Positions 3,905 to 39,685 of a stretch of DNA of 64,000 bases are shown here, piece by piece. The stretch is from a virus, in IMG/VR virus record IMGVR_UViG_3300028592_000004, positions 1 through 64,000 of that record. One strand, given 5' to 3'. The translations under genes were made by a program, and so were the position numbers. Under the pieces are notes generated by a model, which did not search any database, had not been told where the DNA came from, and worked only from the letters and a program-made list of their open reading frames with translations. The stretch's first letter is position 1. Each line of letters starts with the position of its first letter.

Positions 3905-4155
3905 CAGTTCGTGTCCAATCCGCGGATGCGATCAAACTCTTGCGGTGCGTCCTCAGGAACGGCGTCCGTGAAGGTCACCAGCCCGAGAATGTAGTGGTAG
4001 CCGTGGTAGTACATCGGCTCACAGCGGGTGATCTCGATTTTCTGCGTCTCGGGGCGAGTCAGCGAAACGATGCAGTTCTGAAACTCCACTTCGGCACCCG
4101 CTTTACTGTCCTCAAAGCCGGTGTCGATCTTCTCCAGGCGAAGTTGCGTTTTCAT
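3904..4155 (-). CDS. hypothetical protein
   Basis: 83 aa, beta-rich, with alternating hydrophobic strands (VEFQNCIVSLTRP, KIEITRCEPMYYHGYHYILG). The start forms an ATG behind a 1-bp spacer from the previous stop, and the stop overlaps the next start. A small single-domain fold with no recognised motif. Confidence 0.6.
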   Translation of the reverse strand: MKTQLRLEKIDTGFEDSKAGAEVEFQNCIVSLTRPETQKIEITRCEPMYYHGYHYILGLVTFTDAVPEDAPQEFDRIRGLDTN

Positions 4156-4156
4156 C

Positions 4157-4516
4157 TCAGACCGTCGCGAAGAAGTTGAGGGCCTTCCGAAGCAGCTCCA
4201 TCGTCGTCGGCCGGATGGCGACGCGTTCCGGCATACCGGTCTGTAGATGCCACTTCCGGAACTTCGTGTGCCAGGTGCTGATCAGCTTACGAGCGGCTTC
4301 GCTGAATTGCTTCTGCCACTCACAGCGGACACGACCGTACTTGGTCTTGTCCCACATTTCGACGATGACCGCGTACGGGAAGGTCCTCGCGAACTCATCC
4401 CCGCGGATCGTCATGACGAAAGCGACAGCCTTCGAGCTGTTCATGGACGAGTCGAGATCCTCGAACTCGGTGCGGTGTTCGGGCGGCTCGTACCGCCCTT
4501 GAAGGACTCCGCTCAT
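4157..4516 (-). CDS. hypothetical protein
   Basis: 119 aa. A disordered N-terminus (GRYEPPEHRTEFEDLDSS) is followed by an alpha/beta core with AFVMTIRGDEFARTFPYAV and a basic helix (ARKLISTWHTKFRKWHLQ). ATGA overlap with the upstream zinc-ribbon gene. Function unknown. Confidence 0.6.
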   Translation of the reverse strand: MSGVLQGRYEPPEHRTEFEDLDSSMNSSKAVAFVMTIRGDEFARTFPYAVIVEMWDKTKYGRVRCEWQKQFSEAARKLISTWHTKFRKWHLQTGMPERVAIRPTTMELLRKALNFFATV

Positions 4517-4758
4517 TCGAGCACCTCATGATCCGATAGAGACTCGCCGCAAGCGGAGCAACGAGTGTCTGAATGAAGGCCCTTAGCGATGTTGCCGTCT
4601 GTGTCGACCAACTCGGCGCCGGCGCCGAGCCGAGACGGCGTCACCCAGGGCATGCTGCCCGTCGCAACAAACTCGACATCCACCGAGTTCGGTAACAGAA
4701 GGTTGGCCCCACATTCAGGGCATTCAGTGACCTTGTAACGGTGACGGAAGTCGCTCAC
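4513..4758 (-). CDS. small zinc-ribbon protein
   Basis: 81 aa with two CxxC knuckles, CPECG near residue 13 and CSACG near residue 68, separated by a beta-rich linker. This is the layout of a zinc ribbon. It is one of several small Cys-rich proteins in the window. Nucleic-acid or protein binding is possible; nothing more specific can be said. Confidence 0.65.
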   Translation of the reverse strand: MSDFRHRYKVTECPECGANLLLPNSVDVEFVATGSMPWVTPSRLGAGAELVDTDGNIAKGLHSDTRCSACGESLSDHEVLE

Positions 4759-5171
4759 TCCACTACCTCGTCACCCTGGAAGGCGTGCGGGAATTCGTGG
4801 AAGCCGAGCACCTTCCGCTCGCCGGCCACTCGCTTCTCCAGCCGCCACTGCGCCAGGTTGGCGACATTGGCACTGCGGTGGGCGATGAGCCCGTACCGGC
4901 GGTCCCGGTCCCACACCTCTTTGACGACCTTAGAGATCAGGTGCGGTGGCTTGTCGTACCGCTTCGGACGAAAGACTCCCAGGATCGGGCCATAGACGAC
5001 TGGCAACCAGCCATCCTTCTCGGCCCAATCCCAGAGATCCTTCAGAGCCATGTCCACTTCAAGCTGATCTTGCTCGTGGAAGGCTCGAAGAAGACGTTCA
5101 AGGCAAAGCAATGGATCCAGGTCACGCCTCCTTTCCGTTGATGCCACGCAGGATCTGGAACTGGTCCCCAA
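4755..5171 (-). CDS. LWxxA-LPV paralogous family protein (member 1); start uncertain
   Basis: Up to 138 aa. The core LWDWAEKDGWLPVVYGPILG matches LWDHAELGRALPVLRGAIFG at 24891 and LWEHASEGLALPVLIGPIFG at 25331. Homology begins near LLCLERLLRAFHEQ, so the start must lie upstream of the internal Met at MALKDLW. A TTG at 5171 gives the longest form but has no clear ribosome site. The best Shine-Dalgarno, AAGGAGG near 5130, lies 6 nt before an in-frame CTG at 5120, so a CTG start is worth considering. Function unknown. Confidence 0.55.
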   Translation of the reverse strand: MGTSSRSCVASTERRRDLDPLLCLERLLRAFHEQDQLEVDMALKDLWDWAEKDGWLPVVYGPILGVFRPKRYDKPPHLISKVVKEVWDRDRRYGLIAHRSANVANLAQWRLEKRVAGERKVLGFHEFPHAFQGDEVVE

Positions 5172-7791: not shown

Positions 7792-8127
7792 TCAGAGCAT
7801 CTTCGCGGCCAAGAGCAGCGTCAGCAGGTGGAACGCATTGTCCACCACGATGCTGCTCCAAGGCCCCATGTTGTCACGGAAGCCGGCCTGGCCGGCATGC
7901 CCCATGTACCAGTGGATAAACTGGCTGCGGTCGATCGCAAAGTGCGTCGCGAACAGCCAGAAAAGCGGCAGCAACGACCAGCAGCCACTGCAGGTCGCCA
8001 CCGCCAGGGTCCAGACAAGGCAATGCACCGCACAGGGCAGTGACGCCTTCTTCTTGTTGAGGGCCATCCAGTGGTTCTGGAGCAGATAGTCCCCAACCAT
8101 GTGGCCGACAATCATCTCGGCAAGCAT
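7792..8127 (-). CDS. DUF3307-like integral membrane protein
   Basis: 111 aa with three to four hydrophobic segments. The opening MLAEMIVGHMVGDYLLQNHW, with its HxxxDYxLQ pattern and a following lysine-rich turn and HCLVWT, then HFAIDRSQF, matches the DUF3307 layout as I recall it. That family is a small polytopic protein of unknown function found in bacteria and some phages. The assignment rests on pattern memory. Confidence 0.55.
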   Translation of the reverse strand: MLAEMIVGHMVGDYLLQNHWMALNKKKASLPCAVHCLVWTLAVATCSGCWSLLPLFWLFATHFAIDRSQFIHWYMGHAGQAGFRDNMGPWSSIVVDNAFHLLTLLLAAKML

Positions 8128-8618
8128 TACAACTCCACCTCTTTCAGTTTGTCGGCGACGGCCTGGATGTAGGCAAAGAACTCAGCGTTCGAATCATTGC
8201 GGCTGTAAACCCACTCGACAGCGTCCGGCAGGCTAACAGGCCAACCAGAAAAACCGAGTGGACTCATCTTTTTGCGATCTGCCTCAGGAATGTAGCCGAC
8301 TGCGTCCTGAGCGTAGATGAGCGAGGTCTGGATGTGGCCACCACGGACAGCGTCGATTGCCTGGAGCAGATTTCGCTCAAACTGCGTGAGGCTGTGGAAC
8401 TCGTCCGCGAACCGGCTTGTCGGGTTGTGCCCGGCACCGGCCAGCACAGAGCCAGCCAGGCAGACGCGGCAGACACCCGGACGGGTGTAGTGCTGTTTGA
8501 GAAAGCAGGTCATATCGACCTCAAAGACTGGGTCCAGTTCGACCCGCTTGAGATCAGCAATAGCGAGTTCAAGCCACGCGGAGAACTTCCGCGGGCTCAT
8601 GTCGTGGGCTGGCGTCAT
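8127..8618 (-). CDS. CLAG-motif paralogous family protein (member 3)
   Basis: 163 aa. Contains MSPRKFSAWLELAIADLKRV, FEVDMTCF, CRVCLAGSVLAGAGHNP and LLQAIDAVRGGHIQTSLIYA. First of three consecutive members (8127-9714), each overlapping the next by 4 bp. The tandem order indicates local gene duplication. Function unknown. Confidence 0.7.
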   Translation of the reverse strand: MTPAHDMSPRKFSAWLELAIADLKRVELDPVFEVDMTCFLKQHYTRPGVCRVCLAGSVLAGAGHNPTSRFADEFHSLTQFERNLLQAIDAVRGGHIQTSLIYAQDAVGYIPEADRKKMSPLGFSGWPVSLPDAVEWVYSRNDSNAEFFAYIQAVADKLKEVEL

Positions 8619-9184
8619 ATCCCAAGCTCTTTCAGCTTAGCGACCACCCGATCCATGCCGTCGTAGAACGGCTGTTGGTCCGAAGCCGATTTCTTGTGCT
8701 CCCAGTAGCCGATTTCCAAAGAGCAGTCGTCGCCGGCAAAGCGAAGCTCAGCAATTCTCGGCCGCACAGCAGCGTCAATGAACCGGTTTTCGCTACCCAG
8801 CTCATCAAGTGCCGCGTCGATGTTGCCGTTCCGTAGCTGGTTGATCGCTTGCAGCAGCTCTTGGCTATCGGCACTGAGGTAGTTGAAGACATCTCGTTCA
8901 AAGGTCGTGGAGACGCCGGCGCCGGCCAGGACAGAGCCAGCCAGGCACATTTGGCATTGCGGAGTCAAATAATCCTCATGGCGGTGATGCGGATTGACTC
9001 TCGACTGCACGTAGAACACACCCATGTTCACTACGAACCCGGGCGTGACGGCGAACCGTCGAAGGTCCGCAACGGCAAGTTCGAGCCACGCGGAGAGGGA
9101 CCGCGGACTCATGTCGTGTACGATCTGCTCCTCTTTGAATTCGAGAAGAGATCCCAGCAGCGTCTTCGTGTCAGGCTCAGTCAC
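8615..9184 (-). CDS. CLAG-motif paralogous family protein (member 4)
   Basis: 189 aa from a GTG in a GTGA overlap with the upstream stop. Longer N-terminal arm than its neighbours (TLLGSLLEFKEEQIVHD before MSPRSLSAWLELAVADL). It carries an insert rich in His before the motif (NPHHRHEDYLTPQCQMC), then CLAGSVLAGAG, which could add metal ligands. Ends in VVAKLKELGI like its relatives. Confidence 0.7.
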   Translation of the reverse strand: MTEPDTKTLLGSLLEFKEEQIVHDMSPRSLSAWLELAVADLRRFAVTPGFVVNMGVFYVQSRVNPHHRHEDYLTPQCQMCLAGSVLAGAGVSTTFERDVFNYLSADSQELLQAINQLRNGNIDAALDELGSENRFIDAAVRPRIAELRFAGDDCSLEIGYWEHKKSASDQQPFYDGMDRVVAKLKELGI

Positions 9185-9714
9185 AGCCCAAGACCTTTCA
9201 GTTCGAGAAGAACAGAGTGGATGTCTTCGAAGAACGGTTCGTTGTCGGGATCGTTCAGCTCCCAACTCGCCATCTCGTCTTCGAAGTTCGGTAGACGAGA
9301 CCCCTCGTCGAGCAGCTCACGGATCCGCTTCCAGTCGCTCTCGACGATGTAGCGGTTCTCGTCCTTGCTAAGCATGAGGTTGTAGAGAGCGCCCGCGATG
9401 CGACCACGTCGCAGCTTATCGATCGCGAACAGGAGGCCAGCGAGGTCCGCGTCGCCGCGGGTGATGTTTTCCATCGTGCCAGCCGGCGTCCAGTGATCCA
9501 ATCCGGCTCCGACGAGAATGGAACCGGCCAAGCACACGTAGCACGTGTCCGTGTGGAGCGTCGCCAGGAAGTAATCCATGTGCGGCGTGTATCTGGGGTC
9601 CTGCATGACCAGCTTCAGGTCCTGCACCGCCAGTTCGAGCCACTCGGAGAGTTTCCGAGGGCTCATGTCGTGCTGTTTAAGTGCGGTTTCCATCGCTACT
9701 TTCTGCGGCGTCAC
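9181..9714 (-). CDS. CLAG-motif paralogous family protein (member 5)
   Basis: 177 aa from a GTG overlapping the previous stop. Contains MSPRKLSEWLELAVQDLK, CYVCLAGSILVGAG and LLFAIDKLRRGRIAGALYNL. Very similar to the next two members, so the duplication may be recent. Function unknown. Confidence 0.7.
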   Translation of the reverse strand: MTPQKVAMETALKQHDMSPRKLSEWLELAVQDLKLVMQDPRYTPHMDYFLATLHTDTCYVCLAGSILVGAGLDHWTPAGTMENITRGDADLAGLLFAIDKLRRGRIAGALYNLMLSKDENRYIVESDWKRIRELLDEGSRLPNFEDEMASWELNDPDNEPFFEDIHSVLLELKGLGL

Positions 9715-10400: not shown

Positions 10401-10674
10401 GAAGCTCCTCCTTGGCCTGCTTGCCAACTCCGATACGGAGGTGGTGCATGAAGACCGGCTGGCCCGGTGCTTCCAGCGGCGAGCGCATCCATGCGCCAGG
10501 CAGAGCCATAGATTTCCCGATCGAGCGACCGATCCGAAGAACAATGGATCGTTCCTCGTAATACGCAGCCGGCAGGTCAGTGTAGGGCGGTGCTGTAAAG
10601 CGATGAGCCTCCAACAGCATATTCTCCAGCGTCGTGACGTGGTCAAACGACGCTGGATTGGTTGCAGGTCTCAA
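10378..10674 (-). CDS. hypothetical protein
   Basis: 98 aa. The middle reads YYEERSIVLRIGRSIGKSM with a hydrophobic PVFMHHLRIG strand. Ends in a helix KQAKEELRELGYQD that overlaps the next gene's ribosome site. Function unknown. Confidence 0.55.
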   Translation of the reverse strand: MRPATNPASFDHVTTLENMLLEAHRFTAPPYTDLPAAYYEERSIVLRIGRSIGKSMALPGAWMRSPLEAPGQPVFMHHLRIGVGKQAKEELRELGYQD

Positions 10675-10976
10675 GGCGTTCCTTTCTCTGGCTCTTCAAC
10701 CAGCGTCACTTCCCAGAAGTAGTAGAGCGCGTCAACCGCCTCACCATCCTTGCCGGCAGAGCGGACACGAACCATCTCCGGATAGACTTCACGCACATAG
10801 CCAGGCAAACCGGCCTTTGGCTGCACCCGCTTGCCCTTCCACTGGGTTTCGAGGTCCTGCATCCGGGCGTTGTAGGCTTCGTTGGCCTCCCGGGTCTGGA
10901 TCACAAGGTGAGCCAGCCCGTACAAAACGGCACCGCCGAAAACGGCGGTCAGGACGCCACTCCAGAACTTGTTCAT
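10671..10976 (-). CDS. single-TM protein
   Basis: 101 aa from MNKFWSGVLTAVFGGAVLYG, an N-terminal membrane anchor of about 20 residues. The following 35 residues are a charged coiled coil (REANEAYNARMQDLETQWKG), then a small beta-rich domain. ATGA overlap with the radical SAM gene. Probably inner-membrane anchored with the C-terminus outside or inside unresolved. Confidence 0.6.
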   Translation of the reverse strand: MNKFWSGVLTAVFGGAVLYGLAHLVIQTREANEAYNARMQDLETQWKGKRVQPKAGLPGYVREVYPEMVRVRSAGKDGEAVDALYYFWEVTLVEEPEKGTP

Positions 10977-11629
10977 TCCCTTGCCTCTCCCGTGTAGGTC
11001 TTGCCACACGCCCGCGACCAGCCGTCCGGAATGTCCGGCTCAAAGACGGTGCCAAACTTAACCTTTCGGCAGCCACAAGCCCAGATCGTCCCCTTCGGAC
11101 TGATCAGCATGTCCTCGCAACAGCACCAGTCGTCGTTTGACTGGATGCCGTTCTTGAGAGCCGAGCCGTGAGGAGTGATGATCGTGTTCGACCGCACACC
11201 CTCGTGGTTCTTCCGGCGTTGCAGGTCGCGAAACGCGACAACGACAGCCTTGTCGATCGGGTCGTGCCACTCGTCTTGCGAGAGCACAGCCTCCAGCTTT
11301 CCTTCAGCGCACAGTCGAGCCAGCCGGAGAGCCGTCTTCGTCTGTGAGCCGTTGGTGATGATCAGCAGCGGGATACCGCTGTTGGAGAGCATCACTTCCT
11401 CACGGCGGTCCCACTCGTGGTACTCCAGCGCCCGCGTGACGAACGGCCAGAATTCCGGATGAAGCGTCGGTTCACCGCCACCGAGGCAGAAGTGATCACC
11501 GCGGTCGTGCGTGAGGCCCAGCGCCCGCAGAAAGACCTCACGTGACATGTCGACACCGATGCCCGGTCTGCAGCTGAAACAGCAGTGGGCACAGGCCATA
11601 TCGCAGCGTGTCGTGATCTGGATGTAGAT
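10973..11629 (-). CDS. radical SAM protein with SPASM/twitch-like Cys cluster; non-standard start
   Basis: About 218 aa. The radical SAM motif CX3CX2C is CDMACAHC. If translation starts at ATC 11629 the cysteines are residues 9, 13 and 16. GGGEPTLHP follows near residue 50. Near residue 180, DWCCCEDM and WACGC give extra cysteines suitable for an auxiliary cluster. The first ATG (11599) lies inside the cysteine motif and would drop the first Cys. An in-frame stop lies upstream, and no ATG/GTG/TTG lies between it and the motif. GGAGGG sits 5 nt before an ATC codon. Substrate unknown; peptide modification is one option for SPASM-like proteins. Confidence 0.75.
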   Translation of the reverse strand: MYIQITTRCDMACAHCCFSCRPGIGVDMSREVFLRALGLTHDRGDHFCLGGGEPTLHPEFWPFVTRALEYHEWDRREEVMLSNSGIPLLIITNGSQTKTALRLARLCAEGKLEAVLSQDEWHDPIDKAVVVAFRDLQRRKNHEGVRSNTIITPHGSALKNGIQSNDDWCCCEDMLISPKGTIWACGCRKVKFGTVFEPDIPDGWSRACGKTYTGEARE

Positions 11630-11631
11630 GA

Positions 11632-11877
11632 CTACCCTCCGGCGTGAGCGAACTCAGGCGCGCTCTCGGCGAAGTCCTCCACAGTGCACAGCTCAACGAG
11701 CGACGTCGGGCTAACCGAGATCAGGTCGCCAGTCGGCGAAGCGCCGTAAACGAGCCGCGGGTTGAGCCCGTGATGCTGCACGGACTTTGCGCTCAGTCGG
11801 AGATGGACCTTGCCACCGCTCCGCTTCCGGAAGTACTGCCCTTCGGCAATGACCTCCGCGTCAACGATCAGTCTCAT
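11632..11877 (-). CDS. hypothetical protein
   Basis: 81 aa, beta-rich (MRLIVDAEVIAEGQYFRKRS, LVYGASPTGDLISVSP) ending in an acidic helix. Its last codons contain the GGAGGG that probably serves the downstream radical SAM gene. This adjacency makes it a candidate partner or substrate-recognition subunit, but there is no sequence support for that. Confidence 0.6.
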   Translation of the reverse strand: MRLIVDAEVIAEGQYFRKRSGGKVHLRLSAKSVQHHGLNPRLVYGASPTGDLISVSPTSLVELCTVEDFAESAPEFAHAGG

Positions 11878-33323: not shown

Positions 33324-33827
33324 TCAGGACTTCGATTCGAGCGGCGCCGGGTACTCGATCAGATGGCCCGTGACGAGCCAGATCCACTTCCCCGCCGTCG
33401 CCATTGGCTCACAGGAATCCACCGACATCAGCATCCGCGCGATCAGCGGCGCCATGTCCTTAGCAGACTCCCAGTGGTAGACAGGAATGTTCTCACGAGT
33501 TGAAGCTCGGTACTGGACACGGAGTCTAACCGTGGCCTCCCCGCCCTTGAACTCGACGAACTTGAATCGGCTGAAGCCGAACTCTTCGAGCAGGAGGATC
33601 TTCTCACCCGACTTATAGAGTGGCTTCGCCGAGTGGTAAACGTTTTGAGTATGGTTCCCTCCCCACCAAGTCCAGTTTGGCTCACCACGATGAGGCGGAT
33701 CCACACTCCGGTGCTTAGGGTCTGGCGTCGGCTGCGGGTCCATCGGGATGGACTGGGACAGGATCGCTCCTACCCCAGTCGTCCACAGCCGCTTTGCGGT
33801 GTCGAGATCGACGGCGAGTGTCTTCAC
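33324..33827 (-). CDS. hypothetical protein, possible ASCH-like
   Basis: 167 aa. LWTTGVGAILSQS, then YKSGEKILLLEEFGFSRFKF and a late DMAPLIARMLMSVDS follow the order (small start motif, 'G-D/E-x-L' strand, later 'P-x-x-A-R' motif) seen in phage ASCH-type proteins, but the sequence match is weak. ASCH domains bind RNA or nucleosides. Low confidence on family. Confidence 0.4.
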   Translation of the reverse strand: MKTLAVDLDTAKRLWTTGVGAILSQSIPMDPQPTPDPKHRSVDPPHRGEPNWTWWGGNHTQNVYHSAKPLYKSGEKILLLEEFGFSRFKFVEFKGGEATVRLRVQYRASTRENIPVYHWESAKDMAPLIARMLMSVDSCEPMATAGKWIWLVTGHLIEYPAPLESKS

Positions 33828-34105
33828 TCGGCGGGCTCCGCTTTGTCGACTTCGTCGCGGTTCTTGAGCATGGCGTCAAAGAAGACGTTCTGCATCATGA
33901 ACCGAGTTCGACTATGCACCTCGGCAAACCGACTGGCGATATCGGACCGGATCCAGGCAGCCTTTGTCGCCTCGTCCAGGGCCGGTTGCAGCCCGTCGAA
34001 GATGGACATCACGTGCATCGTAGCGGTGAAGTCGACCGGCTCAAGTTGCTCCACTGTTGGAGGGTTGGCCAGCATGTACTCCAGGCTCTGTAGCCCCTTC
34101 TCCAC
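33824..34105 (-). CDS. hypothetical helical protein; start uncertain
   Basis: 93 aa from a GTG (VEKGLQSLEYMLANPP). The frame stays protein-like upstream to ILFNGKTLSQETVPELL, near an AAGGAG at about 34170, but no ATG/GTG/TTG lies there. Either the real start is a rare codon (ATT or CTG) or the gene begins at this GTG. Helical, ends DEVDKAEPAE. Function unknown. Confidence 0.5.
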   Translation of the reverse strand: MEKGLQSLEYMLANPPTVEQLEPVDFTATMHVMSIFDGLQPALDEATKAAWIRSDIASRFAEVHSRTRFMMQNVFFDAMLKNRDEVDKAEPAE

Positions 34106-34580
34106 CAGGGTCAGCAGCTCCGGAACCGTCTCCTGGCTCAGGGTCTTGCCGTTGAACAGAATCGGTCTCAGTCTCCTTCTGGGCCGGAATCCCGGCGGTG
34201 TTGATCATCACGTACGGCATCCCTCCAGGAAGAAGGGGCCAGGTCTCACGCTCAGACATGAACGCGGCGTAGCCGAGGGCCATGCCCAAGCACAGCAGCC
34301 CTTCGGCCTGGATGTGGAACCCCGTCCACATGACTCCATCCTTGCGAGTGACGAGGTTGAGGAAGCTCCATCCTTCCTTGAATTGATCCGGGAGCTGGTC
34401 GAGCATCGCGATCACGTTTTTGCGTTGCTCCTCCAGCCTCTCGGGATGAAACGCGAGCCTGTGAACTGGCCCGATGACAACCTTGGCCCACTCCGGAGCC
34501 GTGACACCGTCGATCAAGTCCTTCCTATCAAGCAGGCACGCCAATGCGACTGCGTCAACGTTCTCCCCTGTGAGCTCCAT
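34041..34580 (-). CDS. hypothetical protein
   Basis: 179 aa from MELTGENVDAVALACLLDRK. Helical middle (LEEQRKNVIAMLDQLPDQFK) and a beta stretch with GFHIQAEGLLCLGMALGYAA. The last 40 residues are Gly/Pro/Asp-rich and overlap the next gene, so they may be non-functional read-through. Function unknown. Confidence 0.55.
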   Translation of the reverse strand: MELTGENVDAVALACLLDRKDLIDGVTAPEWAKVVIGPVHRLAFHPERLEEQRKNVIAMLDQLPDQFKEGWSFLNLVTRKDGVMWTGFHIQAEGLLCLGMALGYAAFMSERETWPLLPGGMPYVMINTAGIPAQKETETDSVQRQDPEPGDGSGAADPGGEGATEPGVHAGQPSNSGAT

Positions 34581-37482: not shown

Positions 37483-38301
37483 TTACGGTCGACTGAGACG
37501 CGCAATCACAGGCACCTTCCAGAGCCACGGAGAGGGATGCTGGAAGGTGTCGGTCGTCGCGACCGTGTCGTACATACTCAGCGCGTCGAGGCCTTTGGAG
37601 AAGATTCCGTGGGCCACAAACAGGGCTGTTGATCTGGCGCCGGCGAGCCGCGGATGAAGCATCTTGAAGGTTGCTCCACCATCGCAGATGTCGTCCACAA
37701 CGAGGACGTGCAGACCAGTGGCATCAACAGGCTTGTCGTCAACGCCGCGGATCTCCTTGTAGACGAGAGATCCGGTCGACGGATCTCGCGACTTCTCGCC
37801 GTACCAGACGTGAAAAGAGGGAACACGAACCGCCGCTTCCTGCTGACTGCGAAGGAAGGCTCCCTTATCCGGCAACAGGATGACCGTATCTTCGCTTGGC
37901 CAGCCCAGGCGCTGCAGGAGAGTGTCGACCTCGGGCCACATCGAAACGTTCTCAAGATTGTCGATCTCAGCGAACGCTGCCGCACTGTGGGCCTCGTAGG
38001 TACGCACGCGGGAGTAACCGAGCTCGTTGATCAGCCGGCCGAACACGCGTAGCGAGAACGGCGACAGCTTCTCAGGGTCAGTCACACGATCCTGCCGGCC
38101 GTACGGTAGATAAGGGAGAACGAGAGTCCTCGGCTGCATACCGTTCCGCTTGAGGACGTCTGTCGCAAGGAGCAGATTCATCAGCGCGGAACTGGATCGA
38201 ATGTCGGCCAGGAGAAACCCGTCGTTCTCCATGCCGGCTTGCAGCACAACATGCTGCTCCCCGGCGGAGAAGGTCAGCGTCTTAAAACTGGACAGAAGCA
38301 T
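37483..38301 (-). CDS. PRPP synthetase family pyrophosphokinase
   Basis: 272 aa, shorter than cellular Prs (about 310). LPYLPYGRQDR near residue 62, the EAHS region (DLHA in Prs) and VLVVDDICDGGATF near residue 200, the PRPP loop, assign the family, which transfers pyrophosphate from ATP to ribose 5-phosphate. It overlaps the upstream NAMPT gene by 20 bp. In phage NAD+ rebuilding pathways a Prs relative acts with a NAMPT relative; an ADP-ribose-using variant would need biochemical proof. Confidence 0.8.
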   Translation of the reverse strand: MLLSSFKTLTFSAGEQHVVLQAGMENDGFLLADIRSSSALMNLLLATDVLKRNGMQPRTLVLPYLPYGRQDRVTDPEKLSPFSLRVFGRLINELGYSRVRTYEAHSAAAFAEIDNLENVSMWPEVDTLLQRLGWPSEDTVILLPDKGAFLRSQQEAAVRVPSFHVWYGEKSRDPSTGSLVYKEIRGVDDKPVDATGLHVLVVDDICDGGATFKMLHPRLAGARSTALFVAHGIFSKGLDALSMYDTVATTDTFQHPSPWLWKVPVIARLSRP

Positions 38302-39685
38302 GGAAGTTCCTTCGCACTTCGTCGAACGTGTAGCGCCGCAGGATCTGCCCGTTTCGGAAAACAGGCATGAGTTCGCTGGGCGCGTCGGGCGGTGCCGAGT
38401 CGTAGGTGACCCCGGCGCGGAGAGCGACCCGGCCAACATGGCTCTTCTTGCCAGAGTCGGTGATCGGGTCCTTGAAGATGTTGACGTTGCGACCGTTCCG
38501 CGTGATCTGCGTGGCCTTGATCGCCATCCCCAGAGTGTCCCGCGTGCCGGCCCGGAGCAGACCACCAGCTCCGATGACGATATTCGATCCGTCGTACCCA
38601 GAGCCGACAGAGCGAATCAGCGTCTCCTCGTACCGCTGATGGTACATCCCGTCCCCGTAGATCAGCCCGATCTTCGGATTCAAGATACGGTACGGACTGT
38701 CGGCCAGCCGCTCGCTGCCGAACAACTCGTCCAACAGGACCAGCACACCCTTGGCCTCCGGCGTACCTGGCTCAGCCTTGGCATCACCGCAGATGATGTC
38801 CGGCGGGTAACCGCTATCGGGACGGATGATGACCCGACCGTTACGGGCAAGGATCTTGTCCTTCAGCCGCGGCAGAATGTTCGTACAGACGTGCCAGATC
38901 GAGTAGGTGTCCGAGACGATGGAAACGTAGCCGTCCGGATACAACTCCAGCATCCGCTCGAACGCCTCGAACTCGAACTCGCGACCGTAGGAGCACATGA
39001 CAGAGTGCTCGGAGGCGGGCACAGACATCATGCACGGCGATTCCGTTGGGAGGCTGTAGTACTCCTCAATGAACGGCTCGGCCACGATCGTGTCGCTGCC
39101 GCGGAACACGATGAGATGCGCTGCGCCGGAGATTGCCGCTGACTCCTCAGACGTGTCGCTCCGGTAGCCGAAGTCGTGCACGTTGAATTCCAGAGGCTGT
39201 CGCGAGTAGCGACGAGCGATTCGGTAATACTCCAGACTGTTTGTCGCGACGGTGCAGGGATACCACACCTTCAGCAGCAACGATTCCAGAAAGCCCGGCG
39301 CCCACGGGAAGTCGTCGTGCGTCGACTCCAGCGTGAGCAGGGCATTCTTCACCGGCAGGACGGTGCCCTCAGGCACGGCGCTGATCTCGACAGGCCACTG
39401 ACCGAGGTCAGCGATGCCGTGGAGCTTCTCCTTGATGTCGTCGCTCGGCTCGGACCCGAGGATCCGCCGACGCCGCTTGAGGAAGTCCTCGACGTTGGCC
39501 GTCGTGATGGGCTGAGTCAAGTACTCCATCAGGTAGTACTGCAAGCCGAAGAACAGGAGCTCCTCGAAGTACTTGTCGCTTCGGGCGTTCAGATACGAAA
39601 TCACCCGGGTGGTCCCGGGTGCGTACTGTTCCATGTGGCCCATCTTGTAGACGTCAGTCCGCAGAAGCGGGTGAACTAGCTTCAT
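38282..39685 (-). CDS. nicotinamide phosphoribosyltransferase (NAMPT/Namat-type)
   Basis: 467 aa, near the family's usual 480-490. TDVYKMGHMEQYAPGTTRVI, VHDFGYRSDTSEESAAISGA, VSDTYSIWHVC, IRPDSGYPPD and NIVIGAGGLLRAGTRDTLG follow the NAMPT core in order, including the RPDSG loop. The enzyme joins nicotinamide to PRPP to give NMN, or to ADP-ribose pyrophosphate to give NAD+ in the phage Namat variant. Overlap with the Prs homologue downstream points to one pathway. Which variant this is cannot be told from the sequence. Confidence 0.85.
   Translation of the reverse strand: MKLVHPLLRTDVYKMGHMEQYAPGTTRVISYLNARSDKYFEELLFFGLQYYLMEYLTQPITTANVEDFLKRRRRILGSEPSDDIKEKLHGIADLGQWPVEISAVPEGTVLPVKNALLTLESTHDDFPWAPGFLESLLLKVWYPCTVATNSLEYYRIARRYSRQPLEFNVHDFGYRSDTSEESAAISGAAHLIVFRGSDTIVAEPFIEEYYSLPTESPCMMSVPASEHSVMCSYGREFEFEAFERMLELYPDGYVSIVSDTYSIWHVCTNILPRLKDKILARNGRVIIRPDSGYPPDIICGDAKAEPGTPEAKGVLVLLDELFGSERLADSPYRILNPKIGLIYGDGMYHQRYEETLIRSVGSGYDGSNIVIGAGGLLRAGTRDTLGMAIKATQITRNGRNVNIFKDPITDSGKKSHVGRVALRAGVTYDSAPPDAPSELMPVFRNGQILRRYTFDEVRRNFHASVQF

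Follow-up and report, generated by a model that had tools for sequence, protein, structure and literature searches.

A phage gene for a radical SAM enzyme that is probably translated from an AUC codon

A radical SAM gene encoded on a metagenomic virus contig (IMG/VR record IMGVR_UViG_3300028592_000004, 229,210 bases) appears to be a real gene that, judging from the sequence and its comparison with homologs, is probably translated from an AUC codon at position 11629 of the window, that is, the 64,000-nucleotide stretch of this record analyzed here. The initial annotation of the locus had named this ATC as the probable initiator, a proposal that the relatives of the gene support: in 38 of 39 other family members, ATG or GTG occupies the homologous codon or the one preceding it. 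Because the start codons of the relatives align at this position, the start is placed by homology and not by the Shine-Dalgarno (SD) sequence alone. The features of the locus are as follows.

11632..11877, minus strand: upstream gene, 81 amino acids, without a family match; its stop codon TAG (11634-11632) ends 2 nt before the ATC, and the SD sequence lies in its last codons
11654..11656, minus strand: in-frame TGA that closes the radical SAM frame upstream of the ATC (sequence, translation)
11636..11640, minus strand: SD sequence GGAGG, 6 nt before the ATC
11627..11629, minus strand: proposed start codon ATC, homologous to the ATG or GTG of family members and to the ATT of one of them (L001)
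10973..11629, minus strand: radical SAM gene, 218 amino acids, from the proposed start ATC 11629-11627 to TGA 10975-10973 (translation, Pfam, family alignments, structural model)
11597..11599, minus strand: first in-frame ATG, without an SD sequence, between the first and second cluster cysteines (Cys9 and Cys13; sequence)
11580..11605, minus strand: CX3CX2C cluster motif CDMACAHC (Cys9, Cys13 and Cys16; translation, alignment)
11067..11125, minus strand: C-terminal CxC-x13-CxC (Cys169, Cys171, Cys185 and Cys187; alignment, model and structure comparison), putative cluster ligands
10671..10976, minus strand: next downstream gene, whose ATG overlaps the radical SAM TGA (ATGA)

The radical SAM frame is complete, with 218 residues encoded from 11629 to 10973 on the minus strand, and its product matches the Pfam Radical_SAM family (PF04055) with E = 1.2e-10 and 42.2 bits, compared with a curated cut-off of 29.5; by our own arithmetic, an open run of 218 codons at 60% GC would occur by chance with a probability of about 1e-3. 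On the minus strand, the junction with the upstream gene reads GCC TGA GTT CGC TCA CGC CGG AGG GTA GTC ATC TAC ATC CAG ATC ACG ACA CGC TGC GAT ATG. Sequence and translation confirm the earlier observation that the gene lacks a standard start codon: between the TGA at 11656-11654 and the first cluster cysteine there is no in-frame ATG, GTG or TTG, and the first in-frame ATG, at 11599, does fall between Cys9 and Cys13, where it would be unusable as the start of a working enzyme because the first cysteine would be lost. The GGAGGG located by the same annotation 5 nt before the ATC is likewise correctly placed, and no ATG, GTG or TTG lies within range of its GGAGG in any frame. Among the 1247 ATC triplets on the coding strand, 25 (2.0%) are preceded, with a spacing of 4-9 nt, by an SD match that is 5 nt or longer, and the RNA structure at the initiation site is not unusually open (z = +1.0).

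All 92 genes predicted in the window by our own scan lie on the minus strand. The ATG of the 81-residue upstream gene overlaps the TGA of the gene preceding it (ATGA), and the same overlap joins the radical SAM gene to the gene downstream, so that the latter junction is indicative of a tight operon and of a genuine TGA stop. The gene finder, which is our own code, is crude, has a small training set and shortens the radical SAM start; it was used for stops and candidate starts only.

Scanning IMG/VR with a profile and with a DNA pattern enlarged the family set to 39 other phage genes, a few of which are near-duplicates or contig-end fragments. These genes share the N-terminus M-Y-[IL]-Q-[IL]-[ST]-T, and none carries an N-terminal extension. 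At the homologous position, the start codon is ATG in 35, GTG in 3 and ATT in 1, the window gene having ATC; save for three ATG members that start one codon earlier (M-x-Y), the ATG or GTG directly precedes the invariant Tyr2. The window protein fits the pattern of this phage MY[IL]QITT radical SAM family, Y-[IL]-[QR]-x-[ST]-x..C..MxCxHC followed by a C-terminal CxC-x(n)-CxC, and retains all 21 invariant family residues, Met1 not being one of them. The radical SAM proteins of Vibrio phages V-YDF132, vB_VpS_PG28, VH2_2019 and vB_VibS_KarBoss belong to the same family (36-41% identity) and have the same N-terminus, but differ in starting with ATG and, in some cases, in a longer acidic C-terminus; four Vibrio phage genes align from residue 1 of the query, and all four are annotated from the ATG at that codon. 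A DNA scan for further ATH-start members, with the pattern [ATH]-Y-I-Q-I-T-T-x-C, yielded chance matches only. Outside the phage set, the Deferribacter desulfuricans megaplasmid pDF308 carries at 4001-4816 a radical SAM gene that is 34.5% identical and annotated from the same start position. In three Vibrio phages, the radical SAM gene is closely preceded by speE (polyamine aminopropyltransferase); apart from such related Vibrio phages, no gene family recurs beside this gene across the phages compared.

The single ATT member, L001 (contig 3300020045_002087), has this codon at the position homologous to the window ATC, preceded by AAGGAG at a distance of 7 nt, and its upstream gene, in an overlapping frame, stops 1 nt before the ATT. 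In a maximum-likelihood tree of 35 members, L001 and the window gene group as sisters, with support values of 94/88 when residue 1 is included. This pairing persists in the best tree without residue 1 and in 921 of the 1000 corresponding bootstrap trees (92%), but the SH-aLRT value falls to 57, and the long branch of L001 likewise speaks against the relationship. A random pair among the 35 members forms a cherry in about 1% of cases (7 of 595 pairs). L001 is probably the closest relative of the window gene, and the ATY start may have been inherited from their common ancestor, for which the evidence is moderate. In L001, however, in-frame ATGs occur within the preceding gene, 51-63 nt (17-21 codons) upstream of the ATT, which is therefore the favored start but not a forced one.

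The sister relationship bears directly on the unlikely case that the ATC is a base error in the metagenome assembly and that the true codon is ATG, in an otherwise ordinary gene. A single G-to-C difference would account for everything, all relatives but one have ATG or GTG, and the record is a metagenomic contig for whose window a near-identical second record was sought and not found. However, the remainder of the radical SAM frame is clean, and errors do not predict that the sole other ATH member should be the sister of the window gene; the near-cognate ATT in that sister makes a sequencing error less likely. A recent mutational loss of the start, leaving the gene silent or dying, is distinctly improbable: AUC is indeed a poor initiator in E. 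coli (see below), but the full-length frame, the invariant family residues and the SD sequence have all been kept, and a sister with ATT exists.

Initiation at another in-frame codon close to the SD sequence, namely GTC 11632, GTA 11635 or ATC 11623, is very improbable. The spacing to the SD sequence would be 3, 0 and 12 nt, respectively, GTC and GTA are poorer near-cognates, and ATC 11629 is directly equivalent to Met1 of the family; the GTA or GTC start entertained in the initial annotation would moreover add residues that are absent from the directly aligned relatives. A second alternative raised there, frameshifting out of the upstream gene, would take the form of a -1 slip that yields a fusion protein. 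In its favor, the upstream gene overlaps the radical SAM frame and ends at TAG 11634-11632, but we give it hardly any credence: the junction GCC GGA GGG TAG has no X XXY YYZ slippery heptamer, the fusion would add an 80-residue extension of a kind that no family member has, and the gene upstream in the window shows no similarity visible by eye to its counterpart in L001. Opal readthrough, with a start at GTG 11686, in frame beyond the TGA at 11656, and decoding of that TGA by a 75-nt phage tRNA with the anticodon UCA encoded in the record, is extremely improbable because TGA, the commonest stop codon of the window, ends 66 of its 92 predicted genes, including the radical SAM gene itself in the ATGA overlap, and because GTG 11686 lacks an SD sequence and the resulting extension has no counterpart in the family.

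Initiation at ATC 11629 also agrees with the predicted structure. The AlphaFold model of the protein has a pLDDT of 89.7, and its first strand (residues 2-4) begins at residue 2 with a pLDDT of 97; the barrel thus begins right after the proposed start, so that no upstream sequence is needed. With ATC as residue 1, the motif cysteines are numbered 9, 13 and 16, as in the initial annotation, and a GGE-type SAM-binding motif, GGGEPT, is present and invariant in 35 members. The additional cysteines that had been pointed out in DWCCCEDM and ACGC include four that are invariant or nearly so in the family, Cys169 and Cys171 being the outer two of WCCCEDM and Cys185 and Cys187 lying in ACGC; together with Cys208, these are the only conserved C-terminal cysteines in the family alignment. 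Their arrangement suggests that the C-terminal cysteines are likely ligands of one auxiliary cluster. The window protein does not follow the seven-cysteine SPASM motif (CX9-15GX4C-CX2CX5CX3C-C), so that of the earlier label "SPASM/twitch-like" the twitch-like part is supported by the fold and a canonical SPASM domain is not.

In twitch (shortened SPASM) enzymes, the core is followed by a short beta-hairpin/helix element that carries a single auxiliary cluster. The fold of the modeled protein matches BtrN, SpeY and EpeE. The peptide epimerase EpeE/YydG (PDB 8AI1-8AI6, TIGR04078) is the best PDB profile match (E = 1e-16, residues 3-172) and is similar in its CNxSCxHCCFS motif; in structure comparison with the model, it reaches Z scores of 13.5-13.7 over 196-197 residues, tied with SkfB and anSME. 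The top Z score belongs to SkfB (13.8), the range for SkfB, EpeE and anSME together being 12.6-13.8, and the top Foldseek match is BtrN (E = 1.3e-6). As in the window protein, a core barrel is combined with a cysteine-rich C-terminal part in the SPASM/twitch enzymes SkfB, anSME and BtrN, although the identity is 14-20% and the cysteine pattern of the window protein is unlike the seven-cysteine SPASM motif. The differences from EpeE/YydG are also substantial: the window protein is about 100 residues shorter and scores far below the TIGR04078 equivalog cut-off (22.2 vs 300 bits), and it reaches none of the NCBIfam equivalog cut-offs. No YydF-like precursor, export gene or conserved neighbor was found beside the radical SAM gene when neighbors were compared across phages. 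The confident model is that of a compact radical SAM enzyme close to EpeE and SkfB, whose C-terminal part is probably of the twitch type; a protein or peptide substrate is our best guess from the kinship of the folds, and a tentative one.

Initiation at AUC is already known, though rare, and the window case belongs to known near-cognate initiation. Measured in one context, initiation at AUC, AUU, AUA and CUG amounts to 0.1-0.3% of the AUG level in E. coli and to 5-20% in clostridia (PMC9680021), and in Staphylococcus aureus conserved AUU and AUA starts with an extended SD sequence reach about 10-30% of AUG (PMC13009471). Non-canonical starts are disfavored by initiation factor IF3, an excess of which reduces both initiation at such codons and re-initiation, the latter to a smaller extent where an SD sequence is present (PMC2268962). 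Like the window ATC, the AUU of E. coli infC and pcnB, the AUA of S. aureus infC and ccpN and the AUU of S. aureus cvfC1 are third-position variants of AUG (PMC13009471, PMC2268962), and these genes share with the window gene a strong, well-spaced SD sequence and an expectation of low initiation. They are, however, cellular and mostly regulatory genes, whereas the window gene encodes a phage enzyme and has AUC; near-cognate use has been measured for infC, pcnB, cvfC1 and ccpN, and for the window gene we infer it.

The GGAGG and the ribosome that finishes the 81-residue upstream gene would jointly set fMet-tRNA(CAU) on the AUC, where the initiator tRNA would pair with positions 1 and 2 and tolerate a mismatch at the third. 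The product would begin fMet-Tyr-Ile-Gln and be made at a fraction of the AUG rate. Given the published near-cognate rates and IF3 effects, low expression coupled to that of the upstream gene would be the likely outcome, by the same logic as for the AUU of infC and pcnB. A further-reaching speculation, which we regard as rather doubtful, is that in the lineage of the window gene (ATC) and L001 (ATT) the ATY start was both inherited and selected. An SD sequence within the end of the upstream gene, together with a stop codon 1-2 nt ahead of the start, would enable terminating ribosomes to re-initiate where free 30S-IF3 complexes refuse, and enzyme output would be tied to upstream translation and to the level of IF3 during infection.

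A scan of the roughly 92 predicted genes of the window for further near-cognate starts brought up none that is convincing. The weaker candidate is at 33824-34162 (minus strand), where a protein-like reading (ILFNGKTLSQETVPELL...) reaches ATT 34162 with AAGGAG 10 nt upstream; it was rejected as a second near-cognate start, standard alternatives being available at GTG 34105 and at an ATG near 34077 and no relatives having been found. A search for a phage-encoded IF3 found none, and no phage initiator tRNA with another anticodon is present among the tRNAs of the loci examined. Elsewhere in the record, outside the window, the 75-nt tRNA-like gene with the anticodon UCA (G000:C1:227546-227619) is opal-suppressor-like; ARAGORN calls it tRNA-SeC, for which it is too short. 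Seven tRNA genes (Gln, Glu, Ser, Leu, Tyr, Trp and Phe) are clustered at G000:C1:196000-197470. Within the window, and also on the minus strand, three tandem paralogous genes at 8127-9714 share the start MSPR(K/S)(F/L)S(A/E)WLELA and a CxxCLAGS motif, and a nicotinamide/nicotinate phosphoribosyltransferase of NAD+ salvage is encoded at 38285-39685 (NAPRTase, 1e-28; NAMPT_N, 4.5e-14).

Standard gene callers take only ATG, GTG and TTG as starts, and genes of this kind are therefore truncated, with loss of the first cluster cysteine, or missed; a homologous start position allows near-cognate starts to be detected from sequence alone. If the proposed start is correct, the radical SAM gene would exemplify the use of AUC as the start codon of a phage enzyme, a trait that may have been inherited over a deep divergence, and termination-coupled initiation at near-cognate codons could be tested on it.
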